From a virus, in the IMG/VR virus record IMGVR_UViG_3300043568_000912, positions 1 to 29,975 of that record: a DNA stretch of 29,975 nt. One strand, given 5' to 3'. Positions within the stretch are counted from its first letter, which is position 1, and each line of letters opens with the position of its first letter. The notes beneath the pieces were generated by a model. It worked only from the letters and a program-made list of their open reading frames with translations, was not told the origin of the DNA and ran no database searches. Below are positions 1,496 to 25,711 of this stretch, piece by piece. A program made the translations under genes and the position numbers.

Positions 1496-1879
1496 TTAAT
1501 CTTCTTCTTTTTTACTATACTTAGCTGCTAAAACTTCTGGGGTATCATCTTCTTCGTCTACCTTAGCTATTAACATTTTATCTCTGTCTTCTGAATTGAA
1601 CCAGTAATCAACTACTTTGTTTAAGTTACCAACGAAGGCACCTAACAAAATAAGTAGCATCTCTTTCCAATCCTCTTGAATAGATGCTCCGAAGAATACT
1701 GCAGCATTAATGCCGACAATGATTAATGTAAACAATCCTAAAACGATTGCTGTGATCTTCCAGCGATTGGACTGCATTTGCTGTAACATGTAGTAGAAAC
1801 GATTTTTATCATCTACCTTAACAAATGCTTCGGGTTTGGTTAACCCTGCTGCGTTTTTTAGTGTTTCTTTTAAACTCAT
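1496..1879 (-). CDS. Two-TM membrane protein, candidate holin
   Basis: The 127-residue protein has a charged amphipathic N-terminus, a strong TM helix at about residues 42-64, and a second hydrophobic segment at about 74-88. The second segment runs into VVDYWFNSEDRDK, then a highly charged tail. A TM segment followed by an aromatic 'YWF' and a polar/charged stretch resembles several phage holin families, and the size fits. It starts in an ATGA overlap with the T9SS cargo gene, so the two are translationally coupled. No lysozyme or amidase gene adjoins it here, so the holin role is inferred from topology alone. Confidence 0.5.
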   Translation of the reverse strand: MSLKETLKNAAGLTKPEAFVKVDDKNRFYYMLQQMQSNRWKITAIVLGLFTLIIVGINAAVFFGASIQEDWKEMLLILLGAFVGNLNKVVDYWFNSEDRDKMLIAKVDEEDDTPEVLAAKYSKKEED

Positions 1880-3768
1880 TTAGTTATAATTATTTTAGAG
1901 GTTGAGATTTTTGTATCGGTTTTAACTGATACTAAATAGAAGCCATCGGTCAATTGTGTTAAATTAACAACGTATTTGTATTCTCCGGCAGGCATTTTGG
2001 TGTTAATTACCTCCATTACCTTTCTTCCTACTAAGTCACTAACGGCAACTTCTGTTTCTGATTCTTGATCAACTCTGAATTGAATCATTACTTCTCCGTC
2101 GGTTGGGTTAGGGAAGATAAGAATGTTTTCTAAGTCATTCAACTTAACAGGCTTTTTAATTTTACGTACTTCAATCACTCCCATTGCAGGAGTAATGTTC
2201 ATATCTCTTGCATCATTACCGCCAACGTATTTAGGTCCAGTCCAGATAGCTGCTGTTGCCCATTCTGATTGTGGCTTCTTAGCAATGAATTGCATAGTGA
2301 AAAGCTGTTCACCGTCGTTTACTAATTGATTACCTTTCAAGTCAGCAGCACCAAAAGCAACTACTCCGTTAGATGGGTTAGTATATGAAGTCCAGTTTAT
2401 CATTTTGTCACTCAAATCAATTTTCTTGAACTCAAGTAATGCTGTATCGTACTTTAATTCTAATTGAACTGCTCCTAATTGTTTTCCGTCTGTTAACATT
2501 TTAACAGGAACGTTAACTAAGTTACCTTCGTCAACTTTAACTTTAGGCATATTAACCTCAATAGTCTCAGTTACGTCGTCATACTGAACTGAATTATCGA
2601 TGATGTAGTTTTTAGCATTAGCAGGGTTAACAATCTTGATAGGAGTCAAACGAGCCATCTTAAATCCTGTTGAGTTAGCATCACCCTTAACAGCTACGTA
2701 GTAAGTAGTTGAATCTTGACCGTCAATTGAGAATGTTAGGTTGTTGATTGTAGAGTAGGTTGAAGTTAAGTTGGTAGCAGATCCGTTAATTGAATTGTAT
2801 TCGGCAACTGTGAAGAACATTACATCCTTCTTAGAATTAGGCCAAGATGAGAATCTACCTGCCAATCTTCCATAAACTGAATAAACGTCTGCAATGCTGA
2901 TTGTTCCATCAGTTCCGTTAACGTCCATTGTGTAGAAATCAAATCCTGTAGGAGTGTATTGAGCTAAGATTGATTGGTTGATCTTTTGAGCATCTGCAGT
3001 AGAGAATACGTTACCAGGAGTCATTGTATCTCCTTTAATCGCCATTCTAACATCCCAGTAAGTAGTATCCAAGAATTTTCTGAATACAACAACGCCGGTT
3101 GAGTTAGTAGCTTTAGCTTCTACTTGAGACCAAGTTGAAGAACCTTTTGCTCTCTTCTCTAAAGATACCCACAAATTCTTAGCATCTGAACCTGTAACGT
3201 TCTTAAATTTAGCAGCAAATCTTAATACTTTCTGGTTGAAACGACCACCGTAAGAATAAACTACCAATGTAGTATCATTACCCCAGTTAGTAGCAGCCTT
3301 GTTTGAGAATGCTTTAACGCCTGAAACTTTTAATGTCTTGATAGAATCTAAGTTGTTCCAGATAGCTTCACCGGCATGAGTGAAAGTAAGATCGAAGGTT
3401 GCTCCATTAGAATAGTTGAAAGTTGAACTAGTACCAGTGTAAACCAAAGTAACTGTTAAGAACCCTTGAGCATTACTGTCAACATACTGTAGGTATTGAT
3501 CAGTAGTAGAGATCTTCAATGAAGGAACAACTGCCGTGAAGGCTGTGTTATCATAAAATACTCTGTACTGAAGACCTGTAATCTTCTCAGATGTTGATGT
3601 GTTGTAGAAATAAAGAGGGGCAACAGTCTGTCCGGCAGTAGTAGTTGCTACTTGGTAACCAGAGTCAATCACCACCCAGTGCCCTGTTCCGGGAGAGGTT
3701 GAAGCTGATTGTGCCGATACTCCGAAAACGGCTAATGCCGTCAAAAGGAATGCGATGAGTTTTTTCAT
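1876..3768 (-). CDS. T9SS-exported protein with cohesin- and dockerin-like regions
   Basis: The frame opens further upstream (3813), but the ATG at 3768 is preferred. It gives a classic signal peptide, MKKLIAFLLTALAVFGVSAQ, and an ATGA overlap with the preceding gene. In the 630-residue product, beta-rich sequence fills about 40-170. A Ca-loop-like stretch (MDVNGTDGTISIADVYS, about 280-296) preceded by FSTADAQKINQSI resembles a type I dockerin. About 406-500 resembles a cohesin (LGAVQLELKYDTALLEFK). About 545-630 is a T9SS type A sorting domain (ILIFPNPTDGEVMIQF through GFYLVSVKT and the closing ISTSKIIITK). In Bacteroidetes such domains direct export across the outer membrane and surface attachment. 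A phage gene carrying one probably works on the host surface; the actual role is unknown. Confidence 0.85.
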   Translation of the reverse strand: MKKLIAFLLTALAVFGVSAQSASTSPGTGHWVVIDSGYQVATTTAGQTVAPLYFYNTSTSEKITGLQYRVFYDNTAFTAVVPSLKISTTDQYLQYVDSNAQGFLTVTLVYTGTSSTFNYSNGATFDLTFTHAGEAIWNNLDSIKTLKVSGVKAFSNKAATNWGNDTTLVVYSYGGRFNQKVLRFAAKFKNVTGSDAKNLWVSLEKRAKGSSTWSQVEAKATNSTGVVVFRKFLDTTYWDVRMAIKGDTMTPGNVFSTADAQKINQSILAQYTPTGFDFYTMDVNGTDGTISIADVYSVYGRLAGRFSSWPNSKKDVMFFTVAEYNSINGSATNLTSTYSTINNLTFSIDGQDSTTYYVAVKGDANSTGFKMARLTPIKIVNPANAKNYIIDNSVQYDDVTETIEVNMPKVKVDEGNLVNVPVKMLTDGKQLGAVQLELKYDTALLEFKKIDLSDKMINWTSYTNPSNGVVAFGAADLKGNQLVNDGEQLFTMQFIAKKPQSEWATAAIWTGPKYVGGNDARDMNITPAMGVIEVRKIKKPVKLNDLENILIFPNPTDGEVMIQFRVDQESETEVAVSDLVGRKVMEVINTKMPAGEYKYVVNLTQLTDGFYLVSVKTDTKISTSKIIITK

Positions 3769-4291: not shown

Positions 4292-5083
4292 TTATTTTAC
4301 TTCTGAGTTTTTAAATTTGAAGGTGATACCGTAATGCTCTTTTGTCTTCTTGACGCATTTGTAAGACTCACCTGATCTTGCTTTTTCCCTTATTGTGTGT
4401 GCTGGAATGTTTAGTGCTTCGCTTGCCTCTTTTGCTGTTTCATATTCTTGAATCAGTACATTGTTAATATCAAAAACCTGTAGGTATCCTAGCCACCTGC
4501 TATTTGATTTACCTGTTGCATTCTCACTCTTCTTAGCTCGCATCTCTGCTGTGTTATGTATTTCTTTTTGCTTTTGCTTTCCCGTAAGTTCCGCTTCAGT
4601 GTAAATGCCAGCTGCTCGTCTCATCTGTACCGCTTCAGCTTTTGTTATTTCTCCTGCTTCGAGTTTTTCAAAAAGACCTGGGATTTGTTTGTATATTTGG
4701 GGGTTACTTTCTCTTTTCTCTTTGTAGTTTTTTTGCTTATATTTCTTTCTATGCTCATCCCAACGTTCTGAGGGCCAGTGTTTTTTAGTATTGCCGCCGG
4801 TTCCGCCTTCTGCTAAGTTATACCCGTCTGGGTATTTTGATAATAGCTCGATTAATTTTTTTTCCTGTGCATCAACTAGTTCTTCTGTTGTTTCAAAGAC
4901 TATTTCAAATGTAAAATTTTCTATTCCGTATTTTCTTATTGCATCATACAGCGGATGTTGTCTTCCTTGTTCTACATTTCGTATATGTTCTGCCCAACGA
5001 CGCTCACAGCTTTTCGCTTTTCCAATATAAACTTTTCCATTAACGTTGTTAAAAATCCTATAAATAAAATACCGACTACTCAT
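4292..5083 (-). CDS. GIY-YIG homing endonuclease
   Basis: The 263-residue protein has an N-terminal GIY-YIG nuclease domain (residues 1-95): FIYRI, then VYIG at 18-21, Arg29 and His33 in ERRWAEH, the acidic residue in AQEKKLIEL near 74, and the closing GYNL. These match the catalytic set of I-TevI-type nucleases. The middle is lysine-rich, and the C-terminus has a NUMOD-like helix-turn-helix (YETAKEASEALNIPAHTIREK) for DNA recognition. It lies directly after the ribonucleotide reductase gene, and nrd genes are frequent homing sites in T4-like phages. No intron boundary is evident, so it is probably free-standing. Its start codon lies in the loop of a perfect inverted repeat. Confidence 0.88.
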   Translation of the reverse strand: MSSRYFIYRIFNNVNGKVYIGKAKSCERRWAEHIRNVEQGRQHPLYDAIRKYGIENFTFEIVFETTEELVDAQEKKLIELLSKYPDGYNLAEGGTGGNTKKHWPSERWDEHRKKYKQKNYKEKRESNPQIYKQIPGLFEKLEAGEITKAEAVQMRRAAGIYTEAELTGKQKQKEIHNTAEMRAKKSENATGKSNSRWLGYLQVFDINNVLIQEYETAKEASEALNIPAHTIREKARSGESYKCVKKTKEHYGITFKFKNSEVK

Positions 5084-7058: not shown

Positions 7059-8429
7059 TTAAGAAAAAGATGAAAGTTTCATGAATTTCTTAGCTAATTC
7101 CTTCTTATCGAAGCTATCTACCTGGGAAAAGGTTGTGGGTGTGTTAGAAGTCGAATCTTCGTAGGTTGGCATATCTTCGGTCAATTCGATATGACCGTTA
7201 TTGGTATCGATCTTTGCACCGAAGGTCATACCGTCCATTCCATATCGATTCTTCATAACGTGTACTCGACCTGTTCCATGAACCTTATCTTCTTTCTTTC
7301 TGGATAAAGATAAACAGAAGTCGGCAACCATAATCTTATCATATGAACCTGCTGCCTTATCTCCTTCGATAATATCGTCTTTTGCTCCCATTCGGTTAAC
7401 CTGAGAAGGTGAAAGAACAACTACTTTGAATTCCTTAGCAAGTCCTTTACATGCAACGTACATATCATCAATCTCATCTTTCCTTTCAGTAAACTTCTTG
7501 GAAGGTGGTCGGAGATAATCGATGTAGTCAATTACTACCATATCAGGTTTGATGTCTGCATCAATACACTTCTGAAGGTGGGCTTTCAAGGTTGCTACAG
7601 AGGCTGCTTTAGGCGGATACTCTTTTACTACTAGCTTACCGGCCAGACCCTCAACTATGCTCTCAACCTCTGGTCTGTGGTGCTGTACTTCCTCAATTGA
7701 ATGCCCGGTAAAGTAACAGTCGAATCGTTTACCAACGTAATCTTGACCTAATTCCAAAGTATAGTAAACAACGTTGTAACCCATCTTAACTGCGTGAGCT
7801 GCCAATGCAACCATCATCCAAGATTTACCTCCTCCGGGATTACCGAATACGATACCTAAGTCACCAGCTCCAAAACCACCTTGGGTTAATTGGTTCAACA
7901 TAGGCCAGGGAGTAGGAATAGTGGGGCGATAATCCTCCCGGTAACGGGTCTCAATATCTTTATTATATTCGTGTCCAATATTCCTATCCTGTCCAGCCTT
8001 TAACGCGTTATCAATCAAGTGACGAATGTTATCGTAGTCACCTGAGTTTAGAAGGTCAACTGAATTTAATAGAGCGGTTTTTAATTGTTGGTTCTTACAG
8101 AAGGCAGTAAATTCTTCTTCTACATACTGAAGTTCATCGTCTGAATGTCGGTAAGCTTCTTTGATCTGCTCAACAATCGAAGTCTTAAGTACATCGTTAT
8201 CTAGTTTTTTCACTCCTATTTTTAGAGTATCCATTGAGATTACAGTATGGTATTTATTCCAATATTGTAAAATTTCATTGATAATCCACTTATGAGCAGG
8301 GTTTGGAAAGTGCTCATCAGATAAAATATCGTAAATGTTCTGAACGAATTCTTTTCTGGTTAATAATGCCCCGATTGTCTTGACTTGGAAAGGAGCTCCG
8401 TAATCTACTAGTGTCTTTAACGCTGCCAT
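7059..8429 (-). CDS. Replicative DNA helicase, DnaB/T4 gp41-like
   Basis: The 456-residue protein is a RecA-fold hexameric helicase that would unwind DNA at the replication fork. An alpha-helical N-terminal domain (about 1-150) precedes the ATPase domain. Walker A is GNPGGGKS (196-203), the segment YYTLELGQD follows at 222-230, Walker B is MVVID (297-301), a sensor-like VVVLSPSQVNR runs at 336-346, and NRYG (394-397) fits the arginine-finger region. Length is close to T4 gp41 (475). No separate primase is visible here. A terminator after the small tagged gene lies just upstream, so it has its own promoter or reads through. Confidence 0.92.
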   Translation of the reverse strand: MAALKTLVDYGAPFQVKTIGALLTRKEFVQNIYDILSDEHFPNPAHKWIINEILQYWNKYHTVISMDTLKIGVKKLDNDVLKTSIVEQIKEAYRHSDDELQYVEEEFTAFCKNQQLKTALLNSVDLLNSGDYDNIRHLIDNALKAGQDRNIGHEYNKDIETRYREDYRPTIPTPWPMLNQLTQGGFGAGDLGIVFGNPGGGKSWMMVALAAHAVKMGYNVVYYTLELGQDYVGKRFDCYFTGHSIEEVQHHRPEVESIVEGLAGKLVVKEYPPKAASVATLKAHLQKCIDADIKPDMVVIDYIDYLRPPSKKFTERKDEIDDMYVACKGLAKEFKVVVLSPSQVNRMGAKDDIIEGDKAAGSYDKIMVADFCLSLSRKKEDKVHGTGRVHVMKNRYGMDGMTFGAKIDTNNGHIELTEDMPTYEDSTSNTPTTFSQVDSFDKKELAKKFMKLSSFS

Positions 8430-8460: not shown

Positions 8461-8473
8461 ATTAATATACGAA
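8461..8473 (-). promoter_or_regulatory. AT-rich promoter-like element upstream of the helicase
   Basis: Directly after the terminator T tract the coding strand reads TTCGTATATTAAT, 31 nt before the helicase ATG. Related elements precede the polymerase (TCGTATATTTAG) and gp32 (TTTCGTAAATTC) genes. It resembles the Bacteroidetes -7 box TAnnTTTG only loosely. Confidence 0.3.
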
Positions 8474-8501
8474 AAAAGCCCCTGACTTGCAAGGGCTCTT
8501 T
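8472..8501 (-). terminator. Terminator after the 96-residue tagged protein gene
   Basis: On the coding strand AGCCCTTG-CAAGT-CAGGGGCT forms an 8-bp stem (one G-U pair) followed by six Ts. It is one of three near-identical terminators. Confidence 0.85.
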
Positions 8502-8523: not shown

Positions 8524-8814
8524 TTATTTGACGAAACGGTATTTTTCAATATCGTAATCGCGCATATATTGAGCATCAAGATATGCTTTTAAATCTTCTA
8601 ATGAAGTAAATAAAGGGCGGTTGTATGGATCATCTGCCATTTCATCAAATTGATTTTCTTTAGCATCTTCAACAGAAGAAAATCCCATAATTTTTGGAAG
8701 TCCATCTTCTTCACCTACAAGCCAAGCTTTTGCCTCTGTTGCTTCAGTTACCATCTTAGAGTTAGTAGTTACTTTATTCTCTACTAAGTACTTCTTTAAA
8801 TCAAAATTATCCAT
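8524..8814 (-). CDS. Small leader-tagged protein (96 aa)
   Basis: Residues 1-19 (MDNFDLKKYLVENKVTTNS) are identical to the start of the 196-residue protein at 9966-10556, but the rest is unrelated. After the tag comes an acidic, aromatic domain (KAWLVGEEDG, then LFTSLEDLKAYLDAQYMRDYD) without a recognisable family. It is flanked by its own late-type motif pair and a terminator, so it is a monocistronic unit set among replication genes. By analogy with T4 internal head proteins, which share an N-terminal targeting sequence, it could be packaged into the capsid. That is inference. Confidence 0.75.
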   Translation of the reverse strand: MDNFDLKKYLVENKVTTNSKMVTEATEAKAWLVGEEDGLPKIMGFSSVEDAKENQFDEMADDPYNRPLFTSLEDLKAYLDAQYMRDYDIEKYRFVK

Positions 8815-8836
8815 GTTTTGTTTTAGTTATAAATAT
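8759..8836 (-). repeat. Promoter-plus-leader repeat, copy A
   Basis: These 78 nt match 10501-10578 with only three substitutions, all at third codon positions of the tag. The repeat covers the TATTTATA element, the untranslated AACTAAAACAAAAC segment and the first tag codons. Confidence 0.9.
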
Positions 8837-8846
8837 GTTATAAATA
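8828..8846 (-). promoter_or_regulatory. Tandem TATTTATA motifs before the 96-aa gene
   Basis: Two copies of TATTTATA lie at 8828-8835 and 8839-8846, one helical turn apart; the nearer one is 13 nt from the ATG at 8814. The farther copy is fused to the CGTATATT element also seen before the helicase and polymerase genes. Confidence 0.55.
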
Positions 8847-8853
8847 TACGAAC

Positions 8854-9894
8854 TTATTTGAATTTAGACAACCTAAAAAAGGTATCTGTCGCCCAGTAGG
8901 AGACATTCTTAATAAAATGTGCCAGGCCGTCCATCTCGTAAAGCTCAATGAAATGCTTCTTGTGGAACTCGTTGTTCTCTTCTTTGATAAGTCCGTTGAT
9001 ATAATCAATCTGCCTGTCATCTAGAATAGGATTCTTAAGATCCATTAACTTGTAATGGTTGAGTAGGTTCTGCCTTGCAAACAATACCCGGGCATAAATC
9101 TTATGTTCTGTTAAATGATCTTCAGCGTAATCGAAGATATCCTGCATTGACATCGGAACATCTAGAATCTCTGGGAATAGTTTCAAAAGCGTCTTTGGTC
9201 CTAATCCTTTAATGCCTTCAATCTTATCTGATTGGTCTCCAAGCATTGTTTTGTATATAATAAAATTATCCGGATGAACCATAAATTCTCTCTTAACGTC
9301 TTGTGGTCCGTAAAATACTTTTGTAACCGGTCTGTAGAGAGTTACGTGGTCGTTAACCAACTGAAGGTAATCCTTATCAGATGAAACAATAATCATCTGA
9401 GAATTAAATCTTCTTGGAAGCTCTTTAGACATATAAGCAATCATATCATCTGCCTCTGCCTTATCAATCATTCCAACTTTAACCGGCAGACACTGAAGGT
9501 AGTGAATGATCCTGGTTATTTGTCCAACCTTTGCATCATTCTCATCATCTAAAGATTCAAAAGCATCCCAGTTTGTAATTCGGTTAATGCCTCTGTTTGA
9601 CTTATACTCAGGTAGTAAATTCTTTCTGTTAGTAGAAGAACCTACTCCGTCAAAGATTACATAAACTCCTGTGGGATTCACCATCTGAATTAATGAACCT
9701 AATGATCTAATAAATCCGGCTAGACCTCCAATATGAGCTCCGTCGTTGTTGACCATGTTGATGGTTGCAAAGTTTCTAAAGAATAGATTCAATGCATCAA
9801 TAACTAATACGCGGGAGTGAAAATTTTCTTCTGTGGGTATTACCTCGTCTACCTCCTTGATGTTATCAAGTAAGGTTTTATATGCTGCTCTCAT
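8854..9894 (-). CDS. 5'-3' exonuclease, FEN/T4 RNase H-like
   Basis: The 346-residue protein has the full acidic set of flap/5' nucleases: Asp33 (VLVIDALNLFFR), Asp82 (YVIFDG), the Glu147/Asp149/Asp150 cluster (DKAEADDMI), and Asp173 and Asp175 (SSDKDYLQL). Asp220 and Asp223 (MLGDQSDKI) follow. The helix-three-turn-helix at about 226-245 (EGIKGLGPKTLLKLFPE) binds duplex DNA. It would remove RNA primers and flaps from lagging-strand fragments. T4 carries this activity as a separate gene too, and here it complements a polymerase with no 5' nuclease domain. A terminator lies just upstream, and no TATTTATA element precedes it, consistent with early expression. Confidence 0.92.
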   Translation of the reverse strand: MRAAYKTLLDNIKEVDEVIPTEENFHSRVLVIDALNLFFRNFATINMVNNDGAHIGGLAGFIRSLGSLIQMVNPTGVYVIFDGVGSSTNRKNLLPEYKSNRGINRITNWDAFESLDDENDAKVGQITRIIHYLQCLPVKVGMIDKAEADDMIAYMSKELPRRFNSQMIIVSSDKDYLQLVNDHVTLYRPVTKVFYGPQDVKREFMVHPDNFIIYKTMLGDQSDKIEGIKGLGPKTLLKLFPEILDVPMSMQDIFDYAEDHLTEHKIYARVLFARQNLLNHYKLMDLKNPILDDRQIDYINGLIKEENNEFHKKHFIELYEMDGLAHFIKNVSYWATDTFFRLSKFK

Positions 9895-9912
9895 AACTTA
9901 TACTAATATAAT

Positions 9913-9942
9913 AAAAAAGCCCTTGACTTGCAAGGGCTCTTT
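9913..9942 (-). terminator. Terminator after the 196-residue tagged protein gene
   Basis: On the coding strand AGCCCTTG-CAAGT-CAAGGGCT is a perfect 8-bp stem followed by six Ts. It differs from the 8472-8501 terminator by one base in the stem. Confidence 0.88.
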
Positions 9943-9965
9943 AAGGTTTATTTTACTAATAAGGT

Positions 9966-10556
9966 TTAATCTTCTAACTGACTGTTAATGTGGTTAACAA
10001 TAATTTGAGCTTTGTTTGCAGATAAGCCTGTTTCCGACATTACCTGCTCTAACGTTACTGGCTCACCACCAACGTCCACACTTACTGTTAGAGATTTATT
10101 ACCTAGGGTGATAATGTAGTACTGTGTGTCTTGTAAGCTTGACTCTTCACCTACTGAAATATCAACACCGTCTGCAGAGCCTATCTTTATACCTGCTTGG
10201 TCTCCTTGTTCTCTTTCACCTTTTTCGTAGTTTGTAGAATCTTTTAGTAACTGAACTAGCTTTTTTGCTGCTCCTATGTCGCTCATTTTCTTGCTACTAT
10301 ACTGTCTAAGTAGCTCTGCAATACCTGCTCTCATTTTATCATTAAACATTCCCTCAGGTACTGCTTCACCTTCTAGAGATTCTAGAGCCATTTCTCCTAC
10401 TAAGTCTGCAACATCTTCTGGAGAGTCTTCTTGGGAGTAGGTGCTAATTACGTTACCTATCTCTTCATAAGCTTCTCTGCTTATTTCATTTACCATCTGT
10501 GAGTTAGTAGTTACTTTGTTTTCTACCAAGTACTTCTTTAAATCAAAATTATCCAT
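9966..10556 (-). CDS. Leader-tagged protein (196 aa)
   Basis: It begins with the same 19-residue leader as the 96-residue protein. An acidic helical segment follows (about 25-110, for example EDVADLVGEMALESLEGE). Then comes a hydrophilic linker (EKGEREQGDQAG) and a small domain with YYIITLGNKSLTVSVDVGGE and a final helical QVMSETGLSANKAQIIVNHI. No family is recognised. It lies between UvsX and the exonuclease but has its own TATTTATA motif and terminators on both sides, so it is probably transcribed late. An internal virion protein is a reasonable hypothesis because of the shared tag. Confidence 0.75.
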   Translation of the reverse strand: MDNFDLKKYLVENKVTTNSQMVNEISREAYEEIGNVISTYSQEDSPEDVADLVGEMALESLEGEAVPEGMFNDKMRAGIAELLRQYSSKKMSDIGAAKKLVQLLKDSTNYEKGEREQGDQAGIKIGSADGVDISVGEESSLQDTQYYIITLGNKSLTVSVDVGGEPVTLEQVMSETGLSANKAQIIVNHINSQLED

Positions 10557-10578
10557 GTTTTGTTTTAGTTATAAATAT
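10501..10578 (-). repeat. Promoter-plus-leader repeat, copy B
   Basis: This is the partner of 8759-8836, with 75 of 78 positions identical. It includes the motif, the 13-nt leader region and the tag codons; similarity stops where the tag ends. Confidence 0.9.
10570..10577 (-). promoter_or_regulatory. TATTTATA motif before the 196-aa gene
   Basis: TATTTATA lies 13 nt before the ATG at 10556, spaced exactly as in the 96-aa gene. A degenerate second copy (TATTTAGA, 10581-10588) lies upstream. Confidence 0.55.
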
Positions 10579-10592
10579 AATCTAAATATAAG

Positions 10593-10622
10593 AAAAAAGC
10601 CCCTGCAAGGCAAGGGCTCTTT
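10593..10622 (-). terminator. Terminator after uvsX
   Basis: On the coding strand AGCCCTTG-CCTTG-CAGGGGCT forms an 8-bp stem with one G-U pair, followed by six Ts. It shares its stem with the terminators at 8472-8501 and 9913-9942. Confidence 0.85.
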
Positions 10623-10640
10623 CTAAAAGTTTTTGGAATT

Positions 10641-11720
10641 CTATTCCGGCTCTTCCTGGAAGTAACCGGGTGTTGAATCCTCATAAGCTTCTTCTACCAC
10701 ATCGAAGTCTCCTCCTCCTAGAATAGCTGACCATTCCTTTGAGTGAGCGTCTTTATAATTCTTAAGCTGCTTTTCATCATCGTTGATAAATCCGTGAGGT
10801 GTCATAATGATTCTACCTCGAGTTGTAATTCCGTTGATATGATTCTTATCAATCTGGATATTAGTTCTCTTGGCAAATTCCACCTGTTTACCATCCTTGA
10901 TTGCTTTAATCTTAGAAGTACCTGCGTTCATAATGTTACCAAACGTTACTACGAAGGTAGCATCATACCACATGGCAAATCCTCCTTTGTTCATAAGCTT
11001 GGGTTGACCCATTGGTGATTCAGGCTTTTGAGTCCATACCTTGTTTACTACTACTAATGTATTAGTGTACGGTGAAGACTCTTTCCTTGACATTACAATC
11101 CGTTGGTTTACTCCATTACCGAACTGAGTTGACATTGCACCTGCATTCCATTCGTTGTTGTTCTTGTTAGAACGTACTGAAAGTTCGCAAGGTACTGAAC
11201 CGATTGAATCCCAGAGGAACAAGAGGTCATGAGGTAAGCTTCCTTTCTTCTGCTCGTCAATCAAGTCTAAAATGAATCCAGCAACATCCTCAATGGTGTT
11301 TAGAGTCTCTCTATCAACGTAGATAAAGAATCCACCGTAATCAACAACTTCCCCGGTCTCTTCGTCAGTAGTTTGTTCTACTTTCAATCCCATCTGGATA
11401 GCATGTTCCCAATTCCATTTCATCTCAGTGATGATGAATACCGGAAGAATGCCTGCTTTTTGAGCTGATACTGCTGCTTCAAGCAATGCTGTGGTCTTTC
11501 CTGTATCGGAATGACCTCTCAGCATTACAATGTGACCCATTGGAATTCCTGGAATCGATGTCACCTCTTGGAAGGATGGTGATAAAGGTATCCACGCCTG
11601 GGATTTAAATTTTACATTGCTTTTAAGAAGCTTCTTCTCTTTGAACTTATCTAAAGAGAATCCTTTCTTAAGTTCTGCAGATACTGCCTCCGTCAAAGAT
11701 GCTTTTTCTTTCTTAGCCAT
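10641..11720 (-). CDS. uvsX: UvsX/RecA-like recombinase
   Basis: The 359-residue protein is a RecA-fold strand-exchange protein used in recombination-dependent replication and repair. Walker A is GHSDTGKTT (69-77), Walker B is LLFLWD (166-171) in HDLLFLWDSIGS, and the N-terminal helices (SLTEAVSAELKKGFSLDKF) and acidic C-terminus fit the family. Length is near T4 UvsX (391). A loop-like stretch (SNKNNNEWNAGAMSTQFG) after Walker B fits the DNA-binding loop region. It begins 6 nt after the gp32-like gene ends, so the two are co-transcribed and match their joint role on single-stranded DNA. UvsY is not seen here. Confidence 0.9.
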   Translation of the reverse strand: MAKKEKASLTEAVSAELKKGFSLDKFKEKKLLKSNVKFKSQAWIPLSPSFQEVTSIPGIPMGHIVMLRGHSDTGKTTALLEAAVSAQKAGILPVFIITEMKWNWEHAIQMGLKVEQTTDEETGEVVDYGGFFIYVDRETLNTIEDVAGFILDLIDEQKKGSLPHDLLFLWDSIGSVPCELSVRSNKNNNEWNAGAMSTQFGNGVNQRIVMSRKESSPYTNTLVVVNKVWTQKPESPMGQPKLMNKGGFAMWYDATFVVTFGNIMNAGTSKIKAIKDGKQVEFAKRTNIQIDKNHINGITTRGRIIMTPHGFINDDEKQLKNYKDAHSKEWSAILGGGDFDVVEEAYEDSTPGYFQEEPE

Positions 11721-25027: not shown

Positions 25028-25711
25028 TTATTTTACAATTAATCCCCATTCCGAAAAATTAGTATTTTTACACCTGTTCCAGATAGTTGTAGCTGTACAT
25101 TTATTTGCTTTAGCTGCTTCTTCTGCTGTAGTAAAAGTTCCTGCTGGTGTTATATAGGTACCTTTTGATTTTAATTTTTTATTTGCTATAGCGATTTTAG
25201 CACCAAACCCATCTGGTTTTTTTCGTCCCTTAGACGTAGCTGATATCTGCTGTTTTTGTTCTTCTGAAATTTTTCTTCCTTTTAGGGAATCGCTTTTTTG
25301 CTTTCTCCACTCTTTAGAAGGTACCCATCCTTTTTTCTTTTCTGATATTAAAGCACGGGTTTCTTCAGAGACCTGTTTTCCTTTCATAATTTTCTGTATA
25401 TGTCTACTATGTCGTTCCCGGGCTTCTGCAACTGCTCGACTAGAAGGGGTGTACTGATGTAGTCGCTGTGCAGGTCCTAAGTTACACATCATATTAAAAG
25501 AAAAAACTCTTGCCGATGTTGGTTCTATTCGAACTAACAACCAGTGAGCTAAAAAATGCTCTCGAGCTGTTAACTTTGCTAAATTTGATATCTCGTTAGT
25601 ACCTCCTTCAGATCTTGGCTGTATATGGTGTACTTCATAGTATGTACCAACAGGAAGGGCTCTTAATTGAGCCCTTTCTATTAGTTGGTTATAGATTCTT
25701 TGGTAGTTCAA
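25028..25711 (-). CDS. HNH homing endonuclease with NUMOD3-like repeats
   Basis: The HNH core is at about residues 26-58: EVHHIQPRSEGGTNEISNLA followed by LTAREHFLAHWLL, with His28/His29, Asn43, His52 and His56. About 105-170 carries NUMOD3-type DNA-binding repeats (KGRKISEEQKQQISATSKG), and the C-terminus has a helix-turn-helix (TFTTAEEAAKANKCTATTIW). The best start is a TTG at 25711, one base after the sheath stop codon; no ATG occurs before the HNH core. It is a free-standing intruder between the sheath and tube genes, which are normally adjacent and highly conserved targets. Expression may depend on coupling to sheath translation. Confidence 0.85.
   Translation of the reverse strand: MNYQRIYNQLIERAQLRALPVGTYYEVHHIQPRSEGGTNEISNLAKLTAREHFLAHWLLVRIEPTSARVFSFNMMCNLGPAQRLHQYTPSSRAVAEARERHSRHIQKIMKGKQVSEETRALISEKKKGWVPSKEWRKQKSDSLKGRKISEEQKQQISATSKGRKKPDGFGAKIAIANKKLKSKGTYITPAGTFTTAEEAAKANKCTATTIWNRCKNTNFSEWGLIVK

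Follow-up and report, generated by a model that had tools for sequence, protein, structure and literature searches.

The DNA analyzed here, hereafter the window, is the stretch of 29,975 nucleotides that occupies positions 1 to 29,975 of the IMG/VR virus record IMGVR_UViG_3300043568_000912, a viral fragment without head genes. It encodes a T4-like gene set that includes a DnaB-like helicase, a RecA/UvsX-like recombinase, a 5′-3′ exonuclease, a gp32-like SSB, a contractile tail sheath and baseplate proteins, and its gene order pol-g151-ssb-uvsX-exo-dnaB is that of Flavobacterium phage immuto. The window derives from a T4-like phage that is a relative of immuto, the cultured host of which is Flavobacterium sp. 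LMO8. One of its proteins (1876-3768, - strand) combines a cohesin domain with a Por secretion (type IX-type) C-terminal sorting domain; by inference, the sorting domain suggests a secreted product and a Bacteroidota host. Two likely homing endonucleases were also observed, one of the GIY-YIG type with NUMOD1 (4292-5083, - strand) and one of the HNH type with NUMOD3, located between the tail tube and sheath genes (25028-25711, - strand).

Two genes located in the uvsX-exo and exo-dnaB gaps (Table 1) start with the same DNA and the same peptide, referred to here as the tag or leader. As had been proposed from the sequence of the window, a 78-nt repeat spans -22 to +56 of both start codons on the - strand; 75 of the 78 nt are identical, and the three differences between tagged genes 1 and 2 are silent (TTA/TTG at L10, GAG/GAA at E12 and AAT/AAC at N13). 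The ungapped repeat reaches 110 nt with 91% identity (8743-8852 versus 10485-10594). Residues 1-19 of the two proteins (MDNFDLKKYLVENKVTTNS) are identical and the likeness extends to residue 24 (K/Q-M-V-T/N-E). The bodies are unrelated, as expected, and were assigned to different BLAST clusters. The identity of 19 residues, together with the common upstream DNA, exceeds chance by far, and four further copies of the tag are present in immuto (gp003, gp076, gp077 and gp092), with gp003 located in the replication block. The initial description of the repeat as a promoter-plus-leader cassette can be refined on two points. The octamer TATTTATA is indeed found 5′ of both tagged genes, but it also precedes tail genes of the window and is not private to the cassette. 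In addition, a related terminator-like hairpin ends each of the two units.

Table 1. Tagged genes, their signals and the flanking replication genes in the window
Feature	Position	Strand	Evidence or remark
Gene for DnaB-like helicase; outer boundary of the exo-dnaB slot	7059..8429	-	Pfam DnaB_C 1.4e-17
Terminator-like hairpin at the end of tagged gene 1, in repeat family D2	8472..8501	-	91% identical to the 9901-9954 copy; missed by the strict hairpin scan
Tagged gene 1: leader + 72-aa cargo body, 96 aa	8524..8814	-	Same body, 83% identity, with a different leader in locus L178
Leader 1, codons 1-24 (MDNFDLKKYLVENKVTTNSKMVTE)	8743..8814	-	Candidate protease sites after E12 (LVE) and E24 (VTE); family conservation, second-site statistics
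Two TATTTATA boxes of tagged gene 1	8839-8846 and 8828-8835	-	Structural-gene (late) promoter-like
5′-3′ exonuclease gene (exo), between the two cargo slots	8854..9894	-	Pfam 5_3_exonuc_N 5.1e-32
Terminator-like hairpin closing tagged gene 2	9914..9942	-	Repeat comparison and hairpin scan
Tagged gene 2: leader + 172-aa cargo, 196 aa	9966..10556	-	Body 70% identical in loci L175/L176
Leader 2, codons 1-24 (MDNFDLKKYLVENKVTTNSQMVNE)	10485..10556	-	Candidate protease sites LVE, VNE
TATTTATA box of tagged gene 2	10570..10577	-	Sequence
Terminator-like hairpin between uvsX and tagged gene 2	10593..10623	-	Repeat comparison and hairpin scan
Gene for RecA/UvsX-like recombinase; outer boundary of the uvsX-exo slot	10641..11720	-	Pfam RecA 2.5e-06; 68% identity to the immuto recombinase

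AlphaFold produced a low-confidence model for the 96-aa protein (mean pLDDT 62) and, for the 196-aa protein (75), a model with a low-confidence leader, a helical domain at residues 27-105 and a beta domain at residues 123-194. The 196-aa model had no convincing PDB match (best Foldseek E value, 0.15), and the best Z score for its beta domain, 7.0, is inside the noise range stated for the tool. Neither window cargo falls in a family recognizable by Pfam, and PDB structure searches gave no recognizable fold for the 196-aa model.

A search of related phages, which the original prediction had called for, found the tag to be widespread among them. IMG/VR was scanned with a degenerate DNA pattern for FDLKK(F/Y)LxENK, which retrieved at least 120 stretches. 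At least 185 unique tagged proteins from all loci collected fell into at least 105 unrelated body clusters, 79 of them singletons. Among the matches listed, nearly all carry the tag three or four codons past the start codon, and the information content is about 3-4 bits in the core and at background level past the glutamate at residue 24. Conservation of the core arises partly by construction because the scan pattern demanded residues F4 to K14; the N-terminal position, the residue-24 boundary, the diversity of the bodies and the promoter were not demanded. The phages that bear the tag are large and T4-like, probably with hosts in the Bacteroidota. The possibility that the tag is common in cellular genomes was rejected: the same pattern had two matches in the whole bacterial and archaeal collection, one in a T4-like phage contig and the other an internal chance match. 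Besides immuto, no cultured phage of the collection had a tblastn match, save one at chance level (E = 10) to a cargo body, and a literature search did not find the motif FDLKKFL in any paper. When one representative of each body family was scanned with Pfam, PHROGs and PADLOC, almost no function could be assigned. The few recognizable domains included an HD domain (L079, 364-954, - strand), and a weak P-loop kinase-like match was seen in another tagged cargo (L041, 193-1041, + strand); the PADLOC matches to cargo bodies were weak and single, and were disbelieved. In some tagged phages, an intein-like or homing-endonuclease-like insert appears to interrupt the terminase and portal genes (L179, 3870-6623, and the portal gene of L050).

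The octamer TATTTATA occurs at 13 sites in the window, every one of them on the coding (-) strand, with 3.0 expected for both strands. Both tagged genes have it upstream, as do the genes for sheath, tube, hub and tape measure, and it was not found before the window nrd, dnaB, exo, uvsX, ssb or pol genes. In immuto, it precedes terL, portal, gp073, sheath, tube, hub, tape measure and the tagged gp077. Among the matches listed, the octamer is located upstream of 69 of 173 tagged genes versus 1 of 162 replication genes (Fisher, 2e-22), and across the loci listed it is the most frequent upstream octamer of tagged genes; the exact form is missing from about 60% of them. Both window tagged genes thus combine a location in the replication block with a structural-gene signal. 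In the absence of transcription data, we infer from these sequence associations that the tagged genes are expressed late, alongside virion genes. A sigma-70 promoter scan showed no excess. The coding-strand form of the box, TATTTATA, equals in reverse complement the T4 late box TATAAATA, which is present upstream of T4 gp22 and gp24.

The repeat could also be a mere recombination or expression cassette, consisting of a promoter, a ribosome-binding site and first codons placed before new genes, with a peptide that has no function of its own. In the window, the promoter, leader and first codons do move together, and each unit has its own terminator. Across phages, however, identity over the 24 upstream nt is only about 55%, even when two genes encode the same 16-residue tag, and it is the peptide that is conserved. 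The substitutions preserve the protein pattern and the terminal LxE, and a second, unrelated peptide described below bears the same cargoes. We find a functionless peptide scarcely credible. Within-genome homogenization of the tag DNA was not seen, with silent-site identities of 92% within loci and 91% between them.

Cargo swapping, which the original prediction had inferred, is directly visible at one locus, the uvsX-exo gap, and the same cargo was also found behind a second leader. When the exonuclease was used as the anchor in 44 loci, the uvsX-exo and exo-dnaB gaps contained 0 to 4 tagged genes, and in both slots close relatives differed in the leader-bearing genes found there. Across the 151 pairs of loci whose exo is at least 93% identical, pairs that are not mutually independent, the uvsX-exo cargo differed in 96 and agreed in 30, and one slot was empty in the remaining 25. 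Relatives with empty slots exist, L128 being an example. These comparisons showed that tagged units are found at fixed places (the uvsX-exo and exo-dnaB gaps, beside the protease gene and near terL) and that their cargo is exchanged between phages.

If the tag is a targeting signal removed in the head, protease sites tied to it and a prohead protease should be found, and both were. The tag contains two (L/I)xE-type sites, which match the consensus of T4 gp21, a protease that cleaves after (L/I)xE (PMC9026906). The first, LxE at residues 10-12, is present in all tagged proteins as part of the search pattern and reads LVE in leader 1. The second was absent from the search pattern and is hence independent. 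Among the matches listed, a second [LI]xE lay within 17 residues of the first in 141 of 167 proteins versus 15 of 167 in a control stretch further in. In the window copies, this second site reads VTE and VNE, slightly off the strict (L/I)xE. Short leader variants (…ENKLLKE, …ENKLNE) have the middle deleted and the terminal LxE kept. An S77 prohead protease (PF03420) scored above the cut-off in 8 of 11 records, and in 7 of the 7 searched records of at least 150 kb; the relative G001 encodes one, and that of the window itself was not seen because the fragment lacks head genes. In at least 11 loci, a tagged gene starts no more than 70 nt past the stop codon of the protease gene, and in many loci further tagged genes are located near terL (large terminase gene). 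The immuto S77 protease (gp070), scaffold-like gp067, gp071 and MCP all have an [LI]xE near the N-terminus. The leader is diverged in gp069, encoded by the small immuto gene that follows the protease gene, whereas the gp069 homologues of L017 and L104 bear the standard tag. A third recurrent N-terminus (MKKSELKKxIKEx...LSE type), possibly another leader family, was observed in immuto gp072 and some late-box ORFs.

These locations admit a reading in which targeting to the prohead core and cleavage of the leader by the protease do take place, but the cargoes serve as morphogenesis helpers or core fillers, which stay there or are degraded, and not as injected effectors. Several tagged genes of the head cluster do follow the protease gene directly, the gp069 family is a conserved small head-cluster protein that is tagged in some phages, and the T4 core proteins gp67, gp68 and gp22 are mostly degraded (PMC9026906). 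However, the extreme diversity of the cargoes and their presence or absence among phages with near-identical core genes suit an arms race better than a role in assembly, and large size (up to 300+ aa) and a location outside the head cluster are features of many cargoes. We consider helpers or core fillers an unlikely explanation.

The leader could instead be a localization or interaction tag that acts in the cytoplasm, directed to a host complex, the membrane or a replication factory, on proteins that are never in the head. Two of the slots are among replication genes, which is compatible with this idea. It had been stated at the outset that the tag on clearly cytoplasmic enzymes would refute head targeting; this was not clearly the case, since the 106 members scanned produced only the HD-domain and weak P-loop kinase-like matches. 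These two proteins could be cytoplasmic enzymes, and could then count against head cargo. Enzymes injected by T4 are known, such as Alt. A cytoplasmic tag leaves unexplained the (L/I)xE sites that end both leaders, the structural-gene box, the adjacency to the prohead protease gene and the fact that the protease, the scaffold-like protein and the MCP bear leaders of a similar kind, and we regard it as very improbable.

The body of the 96-aa window protein recurs with 83% identity in L178 (1239-2015, + strand) behind the leader MKKQILNKEFCRMQKLAGLITENELNE; the N-terminal leader of this protein reads MKKQILNKEFCRMQKLAGLITE. A scan for RMQKLAG(I/L)ITE, in which the final E belonged to the search pattern, retrieved at least 120 stretches, and the motif is located near the start of at least 116 proteins that form at least 67 clusters. 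Both leaders were found on at least 10 body clusters, including that of the 96-aa window protein, and both are in use in immuto, where gp230 and gp083 bear the second. As the same cargo bodies are found behind ...RMQKLAG(I/L)ITE, the leaders look interchangeable and are themselves modules. Homologues of the scaffold-like gp067 in L026, L069 and L119 end in RMQKLAGIIK, the same motif as that of the second leader. Mimicry of the scaffold tail by the second leader is suggested by such sequence likeness, not shown. Cargoes were also found in tandem. The product of L136 consists of a leader, a cargo A, SSSKMMNE and then a cargo 70% identical to the body of the 196-aa window protein, and internal tag remnants or whole tags are also present in L135, L166, L141, L055 and L045. 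Internal remnants that bear a cleavage site between tandem cargoes numbered 7 versus 0.8 expected. That the remnant keeps the half with the cleavage site fits processing by the prohead protease.

The tag was compared with known systems. T4 Ip1-3 have only the leader in common, and each blocks different type IV restriction enzymes (PMC12373910); in the T4 capsid-targeting sequence (CTS), residues 4 and 7 serve targeting and residues 8 and 10 processing (PMC9026906). IPII and IPIII start with MKTYQEFIAE and IPI with MKTFKEF…ITE. When the cleavage sites are aligned, T4 residues 4, 7, 8 and 10 correspond to L6, Y/F9, L10 and E12 of the tag; among the matches listed, with the core fixed by the scan pattern, residues 6, 10 and 12 are invariant and residue 9 is Y or F. 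Like the CTS of T4 IPI-IPIII, which is cut by gp21, the tag is a short N-terminal leader on otherwise unrelated small proteins, with an (L/I)xE processing site and a comparable spacing of hydrophobic or aromatic targeting residues to the cleavage site, and, as in T4, an S77 protease is encoded in the genomes that bear it. Unlike the CTS, the tag cannot be aligned beyond this pattern, has 24 residues and two sites, and is one of two interchangeable leader families; unlike the T4 IPs, the system has a far larger cargo repertoire and a late-type promoter box. No homology to T4 IPs was detected, as tblastn of phages returned no T-even record and no IP family was among the listed Pfam and PHROG matches.

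Repoila et al. in 1994 reportedly described T-even IP loci with an 11-aa leader and repeated promoter flanks of about 70 bp, proposed to mediate shuffling. The flanks of T-even IP loci contain early promoters; in contrast, the box of the tag system is that of structural genes. The polymorphic T-even IP loci hold many different IP genes with the leader alone in common (Repoila et al., cited in PMC3012670 and PMC12373910). The loci studied here are likewise polymorphic, with a leader common to different genes, but they belong to an immuto-like lineage with probably Bacteroidota hosts, and their slots lie partly between replication genes and partly within the head cluster. The head propeptides and ejection proteins of the giant phages SPN3US and phiKZ resemble the tag in being N-terminal and cut by the prohead protease, a cut that is only inferred for the tag; head targeting was inferred for these propeptides (PMC5694885), which, unlike the tag, are long (often over 100 residues) and share no portable sequence. 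Finally, like phage morons, the units are self-contained promoter-gene-terminator modules between core genes and vary among relatives: boxes and terminator-like hairpins flank both window genes, and slots are empty in some relatives. They differ from morons in belonging to lytic T4-like phages and in having a common peptide leader and the structural-gene box. In leader, site, protease and locus polymorphism, the tag system works like the T4 IPs, with packaging, processing and injection not shown.

We hold with considerable confidence, although there are no proteomics or cleavage data, that the shared N-terminus is a capsid-targeting propeptide like the T4 CTS, with core docking, S77 cleavage, release in the head and presumed ejection of a swappable cargo. 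TATTTATA would drive the tagged genes late in infection together with the virion genes, each gene forming a self-contained unit that runs from the promoter box through leader and cargo to the terminator. The leader, for which at least partial helicity is predicted, would dock the protein onto the prohead core, where the S77 protease, a homologue of T4 gp21, would cut after the (L/I)xE-type sites at residue 12, at about residue 24 or at both, as judged from their conservation, and so free the cargo within the head. On the model of T4 IPI-III, the cargo would presumably be ejected with the DNA and act early in the next cell, most plausibly by countering host defenses or aiding takeover. Prohead-core targeting and proteolytic removal of the leader are very likely. 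Delivery of the cargo into the host appears likely by analogy, and anti-defense action of particular cargoes is a guess; both of these steps remain analogy because the cargo functions are unknown. The capsid-targeting tag on a swappable cassette that was originally inferred is thus largely supported by the protease, the sites, the swapping and the second leader; what has yet to be demonstrated is that the proteins are packaged, cleaved and injected.

A broader proposal is that this lineage of Bacteroidota T4-like phages operates a platform for protein delivery in general, in which two or more unrelated packaging leaders can replace each other, RMQKLAG(I/L)I copying the C-terminal tail of the scaffold-like protein of the phage itself, with tandem cargoes as prohead-processed polyproteins and with hundreds of swappable cargo families, probably anti-defense or takeover effectors, that can be found by the leader alone. 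We put it forward as a tentative possibility, serious enough to keep in view.

Injected phage proteins are hard to recognize because they have no sequence in common. A 20-residue signature, or its second form, flags more than 100 uncharacterized small protein families as probable head cargo. These families belong to abundant aquatic phages whose infection biology and host defenses are poorly known. To our knowledge, the T4 internal-protein strategy is known in detail from coliphages only; the present findings suggest that it is widespread and modular, and immuto, a phage with a cultured host, offers packaging leaders for testing.
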